The notes under the pieces: generated by a model
The model's database searches: none
Told to the model about the DNA's origin: nothing
What the model saw: only the letters and a program-made list of their open reading frames with translations
Part shown: one piece after another, positions 2,532 to 6,455 of the stretch
Numbering within the stretch: position 1 is the first letter of the stretch
How the letters are laid out: every line of letters begins with the position of its first letter
Position numbers and translations under genes: made by a program
Origin: an uncultured Alphaproteobacteria bacterium
GTDB lineage: Bacteria; Pseudomonadota; Alphaproteobacteria; Micavibrionales; UBA1664
Direction of reading: 5' to 3'
DNA length: 64,000 bases
Assembly: GCA_943789475.1 (NCBI GenBank)
Contig: CALSUG010000009.1
Location: 1-64,000, forward strand

Positions 2532-3557
2532 TTAATGAATTACATCAGGAAATATAAGTGGTAAGGCTTTGTACATTCTCCTAGCTAAAGGTTCGTTAAA
2601 AATATTTTGTCGAGAAATAGTTAAATAACCTATCTTATCGCCTTCCGGTACAGGAATTGATTGAGAGTCCATTTTTGGTAAGACATCAGAATATGGTTTG
2701 AGCAGATTCATAACCTTTTTTGTTTCTAATGGATGTACAAAAAAACGATCTCCAAACATAGCTGTTCTTTGATTAATCGCTTTTACCAAGCGCGGTGTTG
2801 CCTTCATTGTAGAGGGGATATCATTCCAAGATGCAATAAGACAGTAATTTTTACCAATTGGTAAGCTAATTTCAATATTCTTATTAGCTAAACCGACCCC
2901 ATAACTATGTTTATCAAAATCAGGATCAATCATAGAACAAGGGTTATCGGATAAAATAAAGTAATTTTCAGCACTGGATTCCAATAGACACCAATTCATA
3001 TTTTGAATAAAATTTGCAGCATCAGGCAATGCAACTAATGACATCATTGTAACTTGAGGAAGCGATATGGTAACATCCAATGCGCCATTATCTAAAAGTT
3101 CAGAAAAACTGTTACCAAATGGCTTTAAAATTTCTGGTATTTCATCAAATTGGCCTTGTTGATCCAATACACGAGAAGTTGCCCGAACAGTTTCCTTTAA
3201 GGATTCTTCGACACCACCACGAATAAAAGGTGTTCTTAAAATTTGCAAAGCCCAAAAATATGCTATCCACGATTTGTCTTCATCAGATATTTTTTCACCA
3301 TTTATAATATGATTAATTGCCTTGCAACCATTTGTTTCAAAATGCATCATTTCATCTTCCATCACATTATGATCAATACTCCCATCATCTTTAACGATGG
3401 AGTGTAGATCCTTAATGCGAAACACATCCTTTGGTGACGCCTGTGAAATTCTTTCTCCTTTTGTATCATAAAGATAAAATTGTTTCGGTTCTAAACAGAA
3501 ATTACTGCTTAAACCGCTAGGAACATAGTGATGTCGTCTTTTGTTTTTTGATACCAT
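2532..3557 (-). CDS. DUF4238 domain protein
   Basis: The 341-residue product starts with KRRHHYVPSGLSSNF, the HHYVP signature at the beginning of DUF4238 proteins, and the length is normal for that family. A second conserved-looking block, FILSDNPC at about residues 206-213, also fits the family. DUF4238 members are soluble and of unknown biochemical function, and they are scattered through accessory DNA, which agrees with the location here. The gene converges on the 1946-2515 gene with 16 bases between the stops. No strong ribosome binding site is seen next to the ATG; a GAGG lies roughly 20 bases upstream. Family assignment is good, role unknown. Confidence 0.75.
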   Translation of the reverse strand: MVSKNKRRHHYVPSGLSSNFCLEPKQFYLYDTKGERISQASPKDVFRIKDLHSIVKDDGSIDHNVMEDEMMHFETNGCKAINHIINGEKISDEDKSWIAYFWALQILRTPFIRGGVEESLKETVRATSRVLDQQGQFDEIPEILKPFGNSFSELLDNGALDVTISLPQVTMMSLVALPDAANFIQNMNWCLLESSAENYFILSDNPCSMIDPDFDKHSYGVGLANKNIEISLPIGKNYCLIASWNDIPSTMKATPRLVKAINQRTAMFGDRFFVHPLETKKVMNLLKPYSDVLPKMDSQSIPVPEGDKIGYLTISRQNIFNEPLARRMYKALPLIFPDVIH

Positions 3558-3673
3558 TGCACATTAATGATTGGCACAACCTCACAAAAAGACAAGACAA
3601 AATTGATTTACACCTTGCAATGAAAGTATCATTAAGCCAATCTGACAGTGATTGTTCTGCATTGGAATGATTG

Positions 3674-3854
3674 GGGCTTTATATCCCCATACGTTAGCGG
3701 TTTAATGACACTGCCGGAAGAGTGTCGCTACTCAATCTTTGGATTGGGTGGCGATGTCATGTCCAAGCGCAAGCCAAAAGCATCGCGCCGTTTCTAACGT
3801 AACGGATATAAACACCCAGTCACCAGTTGAGAGCAATCTTACTGGTGATTTTTT
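3674..3854 (+). ncRNA. Structured non-coding RNA with four-way junction and terminator
   Basis: Hand folding gives a basal stem made of 3674-3676 with 3815-3817, 3678-3686 with 3804-3812 and 3691-3697 with 3794-3800. It encloses three arms: 3707-3712 with 3721-3726, 3730-3737 with 3742-3749, and 3750-3756 with 3781-3789 (two-base bulge). A separate hairpin, 3818-3827 with 3841-3850, is followed at once by a T-run, which is a textbook intrinsic terminator. The element lies just upstream of the lipoprotein gene at 3876. It could be a free-standing small RNA of roughly 180 nt, or a cis-acting leader that ends in a terminator. It does not match 6S RNA, SRP RNA, RNase P RNA, tmRNA or a riboswitch I know. 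Confidence 0.55.
3818..3854 (+). terminator. Intrinsic terminator of the structured RNA
   Basis: TCACCAGT at 3820-3827 and ACTGGTGA at 3841-3848 form a perfect 8-bp stem, extendable by two weaker pairs, with a 13-base loop. The second arm runs directly into six T residues (3849-3854). It ends 21 bases before the start codon of the lipoprotein gene at 3876. Confidence 0.75.
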
Positions 3855-3875
3855 ATATTTAAAAGGAGAGAAGAC

Positions 3876-4334
3876 ATGAAAAAAATTATACTAATATTAT
3901 CAATGGCGCTGGTTTCAGCATGTGGAAGTAAAGGTGTTACAAATCTATCTTTGTTGAAAGAACCCATACCATCGAATGACTCTCGTTTAATATTCACACG
4001 AGACAACAGCTTACTTTATATGGCCGCCGCCGCTGACGTTTCCGTGAATGGTCGTGAGATAGCTAGTCTAGTACGTGGGGGCGGTATTGTTTATGATATC
4101 AAAAGTGGCGACATCAATGTCACATTGCGTACAATTGGGTCATCAACAAAATACGCAAGTAGTTTTACCGTAGAGCCACGTAAGACATATAGCTTTGAGG
4201 TAACTCCAAGAAGTGATGCAATGTGGACTGCGTCTAAATATAGCGCTTTATTTGGTATCTTTGGTGATGCCGTTAATGCAAGTGTGAATGAAAATGCAGG
4301 ATATTTCCAAGCTGTTTTGAAAGAAGTTGAGTGA
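3876..4334 (+). CDS. Small lipoprotein of unknown function
   Basis: The 152-residue product has a lipoprotein signal peptide: basic start (MKK), hydrophobic core, and a lipobox LVSAC with the lipid-bearing Cys at residue 16. The mature part is small, beta-rich by composition and without a recognised domain. Lnt, which would add the final acyl chain, is encoded at 61388-62773. A strong AAGGAGAG ribosome binding site lies about six bases upstream of the ATG. Transcription may be governed by the terminator-bearing structured RNA just upstream. The stop TGA shares one base with the next start, so translation of the two genes is likely coupled. Confidence 0.7.
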   Translation: MKKIILILSMALVSACGSKGVTNLSLLKEPIPSNDSRLIFTRDNSLLYMAAAADVSVNGREIASLVRGGGIVYDIKSGDINVTLRTIGSSTKYASSFTVEPRKTYSFEVTPRSDAMWTASKYSALFGIFGDAVNASVNENAGYFQAVLKEVE

Positions 4335-4582
4335 TGAATAAACACAATATCTTTCTCATTGCTGGCATCTCCATCTTGATAACATTGTTATTTCCTCCAT
4401 TTGAAATATTTGGAAAGCATGGAACTAAAATCAATAAAGAATATAGCTTTATTTTAATGCCCCCAAGTCATGGTGATTTTGGTCCAATGGCATCCGTGAA
4501 TATTAATCTTCTCCTGACACAATGGGTGGGAATTATTTTGATAACATTATCAGCATATTTATTTTTGATGCGAAGGGCTTAG
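4334..4582 (+). CDS. Small membrane protein with two predicted helices
   Basis: The 82-residue product has hydrophobic segments at about residues 6-24 and 56-77 around a polar loop of some 30 residues, with a basic C-terminus (RRA). The ATG at 4334 overlaps the TGA of the lipoprotein gene by one base and is preferred over a GTG three bases earlier. The arrangement suggests a lipoprotein and inner-membrane protein that act together, but neither belongs to a family I can name. Confidence 0.55.
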   Translation: MNKHNIFLIAGISILITLLFPPFEIFGKHGTKINKEYSFILMPPSHGDFGPMASVNINLLLTQWVGIILITLSAYLFLMRRA

Positions 4583-5037: not shown

Positions 5038-6129
5038 TTATTTAGCTGTTTCCAAAATCCACGTCTCTGAACCGTCTCTCTTTTTTTTCTTTGTCATGAC
5101 TAAATGTGCATACCTCTTCACCATTTGAAGTGTTTTGTGACCTAAAATTTCTGCAAGTTCGGCAAGAGATGCGCCATTCATTGCTAAATAAGACGCAGCG
5201 CTATGACGCAGGTCATGAAATCTAAAATCTTTTATGTCTGCCTTTTTAATAGCACTCAACCAAGGCTTCTTAATTTCGTATGGTTTGTCGCCTTTGATAG
5301 ATGGAAATATAAAATCCGTATCAATACGTTGAATTTTCTTATATTTTAACATTAGATCATAAGCATGACCTTGCAATGGAATGACACGACGATCTCCATT
5401 TTTAGTGACATGTAATACAAGTTGTTGGCGGCCAAAATCAATATCTTGCCATTTTAACTTCATGATCTCTCCTTTACGACACCCTGTACTTAAAGCAAGA
5501 ACCACAATTGTGTATAAAGGCTGATATAAGGACCGCTGACACGCATCTAGTAATTTTTCCCGTTCATCATCTGATAAAAATCTAACTCGCCCCCTACTCT
5601 CTTTAAATTTCTTTATTTTATAAAACGGGTTTTCATCCATCCATTCCCATTCGTTTACGGCAATTGTACAAGCCTTACTAAGAGCAAACATATATCGGTT
5701 CGCTCGAGCTGGTGAAATAGTATCTTCATATTTCTCTCCAGTCTCTTTGTCTCGGCGCATCATTTTTTTATGAGATAATTTTTCAATAACAACAGATAGT
5801 TTGGCGCGAGTTAAATCAGCAAGAACATAATCACCTAATTCATTCCCCCACCATCTAAGCATCGGTTCAACATCAATAAGGCGAGCAGGATTTTCTTTTT
5901 GTACTTTTTTGATATAACGCTCAATCAAATCATTCAAGGTATGTCGCTTAGCTTCACTCGTTTTAAAATAACGTCCTTCAGAAATAGCGGTTTCGGTATT
6001 TCGTCCCCACGCTTTTGCATCAGTTAATCGCCTAAAGGTTGCCCTTTGTGCGGGGTACCCTTTCATTCGAACTTGAACGCGGTAACTTGTATCACCATTT
6101 TGTGTTTTACGCATTTGTATAGAAGCCAT
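5038..6129 (-). CDS. Tyrosine-type site-specific recombinase (integrase)
   Basis: This 363-residue recombinase catalyses strand exchange between attachment sites and would insert or excise the island. Residues 1-60 look like the arm-binding domain, 65-165 the core-binding SAM-like domain, and 185-345 the catalytic domain. The catalytic set is visible: Arg218 in STGCRKGE, His305 and Arg308 in HDLRH, His331 in LGHK and the nucleophile Tyr340 in KRYAH. No catalytic residue is missing. The gene reads away from the adjacent tRNA-Asp, 250 bases from its 3' end, the usual arrangement for a tRNA-targeting element. GAAAGGA before the ATG supports the start at 6129. Confidence 0.93.
   Translation of the reverse strand: MASIQMRKTQNGDTSYRVQVRMKGYPAQRATFRRLTDAKAWGRNTETAISEGRYFKTSEAKRHTLNDLIERYIKKVQKENPARLIDVEPMLRWWGNELGDYVLADLTRAKLSVVIEKLSHKKMMRRDKETGEKYEDTISPARANRYMFALSKACTIAVNEWEWMDENPFYKIKKFKESRGRVRFLSDDEREKLLDACQRSLYQPLYTIVVLALSTGCRKGEIMKLKWQDIDFGRQQLVLHVTKNGDRRVIPLQGHAYDLMLKYKKIQRIDTDFIFPSIKGDKPYEIKKPWLSAIKKADIKDFRFHDLRHSAASYLAMNGASLAELAEILGHKTLQMVKRYAHLVMTKKKKRDGSETWILETAK

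Positions 6130-6378: not shown

Positions 6379-6455
<77 letters not shown>

Follow-up and report, generated by a model that had tools for sequence, protein, structure and literature searches.

The DNA between a DUF4238 gene and a small lipoprotein gene on an alphaproteobacterial contig is rich in self-complementary segments, which raises the question of what kind of RNA it encodes and what that RNA does. The region lies in the window, by which is meant the whole stretch of 64,000 nucleotides that was analysed, from an uncultured member of the order Micavibrionales. The original prediction placed a four-way junction at positions 3674 to 3854, closed by a 19-bp basal stem and followed by an intrinsic terminator, and proposed either a small RNA (sRNA) or a leader that senses a ligand. 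The pairing is indeed beyond chance, as the 231 nt from 3640 to 3870 have a fold energy of -87.9 kcal/mol compared with -57.6 ± 4.7 kcal/mol for shuffles (z -6.5). The predicted setting, an integrated island ahead of a lipoprotein gene, was also found, with a tyrosine integrase gene beside a tRNA-Asp gene (Table 1), and the RNA unit shares its intergenic region with the divergent DUF4238 gene. No Rfam family matched the RNA when the 64-kb window was searched at gathering thresholds, and positions 3560-3900 searched at E values up to 10 gave only chance matches far below the cut-offs, RF02221 (sRNA-Xcc1) not being among them. This bears out the expectation of a structured RNA outside 6S, SRP, RNase P, tmRNA and the known riboswitches.

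Pseudoknotted fold of the RNA

Covariation was tested twice, in an alignment of 38 copies and in one of 101 copies, and the compensatory changes that had been anticipated in homologues are strongly present. The fold is pseudoknotted and not a nested four-way junction. Of the cells of the knotted structure in the 38-copy alignment, 95 % are standard pairs; 28 to 31 pairs are changed on both sides, a covariation that no shuffle reached. Helix X and the 5' hairpin were absent from the search model, yet both covary in the 101-copy alignment, in which 96 % of helix X cells are paired and one of its pairs occurs as U-A in 42 copies, A-U in 38 and G-C in 11. Strand s2, in the loop of the P1 hairpin, pairs with the 3' end of the RNA. 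P5 encloses, besides its small hairpin, conserved AUGUCCA...AAAAG segments, and the loop bases of the pseudoknotted core are highly conserved in the 101-copy alignment. P4 and helix X share a strand, 3' in the former and 5' in the latter, so that these two pairings exclude each other, and both are conserved.

The basal stem of the original prediction survives in part. Its inner portion (3678-3684/3806-3812) covaries, but support is lacking for the outer 5 bp (3671-3675/3815-3819), whose pairing, at 86 %, compares with 84 % on average in shuffles, and the bases concerned belong instead to P1 (3673-3676/3685-3688) and helix X (3742-3750/3813-3821). The geometry of a plain four-way junction gives way to the pseudoknotted fold, which covariation favours. 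Two further pairings were considered and set aside: an extension of P4 (3724-3728/3751-3755), which is only 74 % paired, and an alternative CGGC/GCCG partner at 3787-3790, which is 83 % paired but has 6 double-changed cells where the partner in the pseudoknot has 38.

At the 3' end, the predicted terminator is present as a hairpin (arms 3820-3827/3841-3848) with a T6 tract (3849-3854), but it is non-canonical, has a 13-nt loop, and was not called by a scan for canonical terminators. The candidate promoter is weak because shuffles score equally well. A hairpin of variable sequence lies directly 5' of the core (3640-3672 in the window), and visual inspection showed one there in most of the copies looked at, such as GCAGG..CCTGC in locus L133 and CGCTTAACA..TGTTAAGCG in locus L069.

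Table 1 Features of the RNA and its surroundings, with positions in the window
Feature	Position	Strand	Evidence or remark
DUF4238 gene	2532-3557	-	Divergent from RNA unit
Candidate promoter TTGATT-18-TATCAT	3603-3632	+	No better than shuffles; fits transcript start at ~3640
Knotted leader RNA core	3670-3828	+	Covariance models R1/R2, 154-166 bits; fold z -6.5
5' hairpin P1, GGGG 3673-3676/CCCC 3685-3688	3673-3688	+	94-95 % paired, double changes
Strand s2 (UUUAUAU), pseudoknot with s2' 3806-3812	3678-3684	+	96-98 % paired, 189 double-changed cells
P2 5' strand, partner 3794-3800	3691-3697	+	96-99 % paired, 310 double-changed cells
Internal H-type pseudoknot, 3698-3701/3713-3716 and 3707-3711/3722-3726	3698-3726	+	80 % and 89 % paired, double changes
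P4 hairpin, 3731-3737/3742-3748	3731-3748	+	94 % paired
Helix X 5' strand (GAUUGGGUG), partner 3813-3821	3742-3750	+	Aligns with 5' end of sRNA-Xcc1 model
P5, 3751-3756/3781-3786, around small GCGCAAGC hairpin	3751-3786	+	99 % paired, 172 double-changed cells
Antisense strand (P2', s2', helix X 3' strand)	3794-3821	+	Covariation, complementarity tests
3' hairpin UCACCAGU/ACUGGUGA, then U6	3820-3854	+	Terminator-like; sequence and hairpin conservation
UUUAUAU, exact complement of s2' AUAUAAA	3852-3858	+	Just 5' of Shine-Dalgarno; individually weak
Shine-Dalgarno AAAAGGAG of lipoprotein gene	3861-3868	+	Sequence
Small lipoprotein gene, DUF2846-like (putative controlled gene)	3876-4334	+	RNA upstream in all good homologues of the order
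Tyrosine integrase gene	5038-6129	-	Adjoins tRNA-Asp
tRNA-Asp	6379-6455	-	Integrase island

Copies across genomes and the genes that follow them

The RNA, about 160 nt long, is a real and widespread knotted leader that precedes many accessory genes, mostly unrelated to one another, in proteobacteria both predatory and non-predatory. Plain blastn detected 4 copies in the source genome and matches in 34 of the 94 genomes of the order. A first covariance model (R1), built from 38 copies, had matches in 45 of 385 alphaproteobacterial genomes. The second (R2), built from 102 matches of which one was a reverse-strand echo (a trivial contamination), had matches in 53 of 398 genomes of the phylum. Within the order it matched 76 of 94 genomes; a single genome can have as many as ten copies, and the Micavibrio-like source genome has at least nine. 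Copies are also borne on plasmids of Rhizobium and Agrobacterium. The window copy itself had no match in the phage and plasmid collections. An IMG/VR entry (UViG_3300001605_004935, locus L093) carries a copy whose core is identical to that of a locus in Micavibrio sp. UBA6147 (L025), and it is therefore probably an integrated element of the order that was filed as viral. At locus L126 two copies, 4001-4170 (-) and 4303-4461 (+), stand head to head with 132 nt between their cores, each before its own gene, so that each probably starts its own transcript inside this gap.

The median distance from the RNA to the same-sense start codon is +44 nt. A same-sense start with a Shine-Dalgarno sequence lies within 80 nt in 96 of 125 loci, whereas on the opposite side one is found in 4 of 125 loci, and at random places in 13 %. 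This orientation bears on whether the element could be a mobile insertion, either MITE-like or an integron attachment site (attC), whose inverted repeats mimic an RNA fold. Many copies per genome, their location in islands and the occurrence of sRNA-Xcc1 in integron cassettes (PMC12444791) would suit such an origin, but it is largely refuted by the orientation count, the copies almost always being in sense towards the next start codon; the compensatory changes in the pseudoknotted helices, and the divergence of copies inside one genome, which is as great as that between copies from different genera, also count against it, and we regard it as extremely improbable.

The 3' hairpin is present in 122 of the 125 loci and TTTT in only 76. 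The genes downstream are mostly unrelated, 120 of them forming 85 clusters, and the products listed include outer-membrane barrels, BamE- and DUF2846-type lipoproteins, pilins, helix-turn-helix proteins and regulators, PD-(D/E)XK nucleases, a type III methylase and antirepressors. Linkage to a particular gene can nevertheless be close: when 94 genomes were searched for homologues of the window's lipoprotein, the RNA was upstream in 8 of 8 good ones (the window gene included) and directly so in 7. Among 32 downstream genes from beta- and gammaproteobacteria, 5 match Rha, 4 Bro-N, 2 P22_AR_N and 2 SymE, the first three being antirepressor families with 11 matches together.

Family tallies of the 120 genes gave no pathway or ligand common to them, and this speaks against a ligand-binding riboswitch in which the exclusive P4 and helix X states would control the 3' hairpin/terminator or translation. 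Such a switch would explain why one strand has two conserved partners, and would fit the conserved loop bases of the pseudoknotted core and the leader position, but a plain aptamer is not expected to show the locus-specific complementarity to ribosome-binding regions described below, and we consider it unlikely. The predicted alternative of an sRNA or a leader holds in its general form, and the ligand-sensing part of it finds no support in the downstream genes.

Several features were seen at individual loci. In L201, L204, L209-L211 and other beta/gamma loci the 5' domain is separated from the sRNA half by a GC-rich hairpin followed by TTTTT(T), which resembles an internal terminator; in alphaproteobacterial copies this place is taken by the pseudoknot. 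Beside a Bro-N locus (L173, 2777-3137, -), sub-threshold CRISPR-DR9 matches with a regular spacing of ~66 nt suggest a CRISPR array.

Relationship to sRNA-Xcc1

Although the window copy has no Rfam match and a search of the source genome with RF02221 gave 0 matches, other members found with the models score above the curated RF02221 cut-off of 53 bits (L176 67.5, L168 61.2 and L181 53.6), which qualifies the original view that the RNA has no match to a known family. Conversely, of 30 loci retrieved with RF02221, 28 are matched by R2 along its whole length, with E values from 1e-4 to 1e-14. These loci keep P1L and P2 of the 5' domain at 98-99 %, but both helices are already part of the model, which biases this value in its favour. 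As RF02221 loci also carry the 5' domain, RF02221 models only the 3' half of the molecule, from helix X on. Intermediates match R2 and RF02221 over the same bases and form a homology bridge. The knotted RNA is a longer, divergent relative of sRNA-Xcc1.

sRNA-Xcc1 was described in X. campestris as an RNA of 88 nt whose ends were mapped and which gave one band of ~100 nt on Northern blots (PMC2996969), and its mapped length equals that of the 3' half of the RNA. In Xanthomonas integron cassettes it lies upstream of symE (PMC12444791). These published data, with the terminator-like 3' end of many copies, would agree with a free-standing trans-acting sRNA that has its own terminator and distant targets, as sRNA-Xcc1 was described. 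However, the RNA has a fixed place ~44 nt before a start codon and is linked with particular genes, ~40 % of copies are without a U-tract, and complementarity within the RNA's own locus to the adjacent ribosome-binding region points to the adjacent gene, so that we consider a trans-acting role improbable. In the literature searched, no paper was found that ties sRNA-Xcc1 to control of the C4 type.

Antisense complementarity and a proposed C4-like switch

The antisense strand (3794-3821) has the 5' domain as one partner and, in related loci, the ribosome-binding region of the next gene as the other. Duplex energies of own pairs of antisense strand and ribosome-binding region were compared with GC-matched swaps between loci. 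For s2' with the 3' strand of helix X, own pairs gave -8.9 against -7.5 kcal/mol for swapped pairs in the order (z -4.3), -11.2 against -9.1 kcal/mol in the class (z -7.4), and a z of -2.6 in the beta/gamma set (-3.8 for the whole leader). Controls with s2, the coding region and the upstream region gave no own-locus signal. In the beta/gamma set P2' paired with the leader at -11.3 kcal/mol for own and -7.9 kcal/mol for swapped loci, equalled in 0 of 1000 swaps. The complementarity is thus locus-specific as a population average over related loci, whose relatedness makes the effective numbers smaller.

Leaders of the beta/gamma set contain a repeat of the 5' domain. At a SymE locus (L202) a 20/21-nt repeat of the 5' domain lies over the ribosome-binding site, and the antisense strand forms duplexes of -29.8 kcal/mol with the leader and -29.5 kcal/mol with the 5' domain; at a Bro-N locus (L188) the repeat reaches into the start codon. 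In E. coli O157 EDL933 the phage antirepressor gene ant begins 41 nt beyond the end of sRNA-Xcc1, and ACTAAACAAATAAG recurs in the leader. Pairing of s2' with the ribosome-binding region is weak in the window copy (-4.7 kcal/mol, equalled by 50 of 97 other sites) and likewise in several other copies of the source genome, and the mechanism for the window copy is therefore inferred from its family.

We favour, with modest confidence, the reading that the RNA is a C4-like self-targeting antisense leader and that sRNA-Xcc1 is its processed product. The antisense strand (P2', s2' and the 3' strand of helix X) is complementary to the 5' domain of the RNA as well as to the region around the ribosome-binding site of the gene that follows. 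In the knotted state it would be held by the 5' domain and the gene would be translatable, this being the probable direction of regulation; once free, it would cover the ribosome-binding site of that gene. An sRNA of ~88 nt covering the same site would arise if the RNA were cut where helix X begins, for which RNase P is a candidate, and the 3' hairpin may double as a terminator in Micavibrionales copies, including that of the window. Many distant copies begin helix X with GG, and ACCA stands after the helix, features that are no more than compatible with RNase P. A tRNA-like 3' end (helix X plus ACCA) was rejected because ACCA is not universal, which leaves RNase P compatible. The C4 RNA of phages P1 and P7 is cut by RNase P from a longer transcript, pairs through its a' and b' loops with the ribosome-binding site and with sequence upstream of it (PMC5320573), and controls ant (PMC5320573, PMC8201110). 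The Xanthomonas cassettes with sRNA-Xcc1 before symE (PMC12444791) are in line with this logic.

A wider generalisation is offered more tentatively, at somewhat under even confidence: the RNA may be a portable, self-addressed switch, a pseudoknotted leader with a variable strand matched to the ribosome-binding site of the following gene and up to ten copies per genome, which throughout Pseudomonadota controls accessory, envelope and prophage genes; sRNA-Xcc1 would be its processed half and not a general trans-acting sRNA. An isolated and poorly explained sRNA family would then become a large class with a concrete proposed mechanism, of which the Rfam model describes half the molecule. The 'trans-acting' sRNA-Xcc1 would gain a likely real target in the adjacent gene (symE, ant, lipoprotein genes and others), and bacterial predators such as Micavibrio would hold many copies of the switch before surface and accessory genes.

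Among known systems, the group I intron core, self-cleaving ribozymes, retrons and omega RNA were set aside as unlikely, as their element order or partner gene differs. Type III toxin-antitoxin loci (ToxIN) likewise have a pseudoknotted RNA, a terminator-like hairpin and then a gene, but the knotted RNA has neither tandem RNA repeats nor a common downstream toxin family, and no toxin of the ToxN, CptN or TenpN type was found among the top 25 downstream families listed. sRNA-Xcc1 has helix X, P5 and P6 in identical order, with helix X outermost, P5 inside it and a small hairpin innermost, and is likewise upstream of symE, antirepressor and other accessory genes. It differs in that RF02221 spans only the 3' ~88 nt and the window copy falls under any threshold, in the P5/P6 loops (AUGUCCA..AAAAG in the window copy, AAUACAA..GGGAAU in sRNA-Xcc1), and in that the window copy has the PKa/PKb pseudoknot and the 3' terminator-like hairpin. 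A genuine C4 RNA (RF01695, above cut-off) was seen at locus L165 (2062-2134, -), ~1.4 kb upstream of an R2-type RNA. RF01695 matched neither the window nor the R2 cores, and C4 has three hairpins in place of the knotted fold, whereas the knotted RNA has a far wider range of downstream genes and, in the order, a terminator-like element. Like C4, the knotted RNA is embedded in a leader upstream of the gene that it is proposed to control. Antisense segments complementary to an upstream copy and to the ribosome-binding region, as C4 has them, are seen in the family as a whole and are explicit in beta/gamma copies but weak in the window copy. C4 is processed from a longer transcript, as the knotted RNA probably is, and antirepressor genes are frequent putative targets of the beta/gamma copies.
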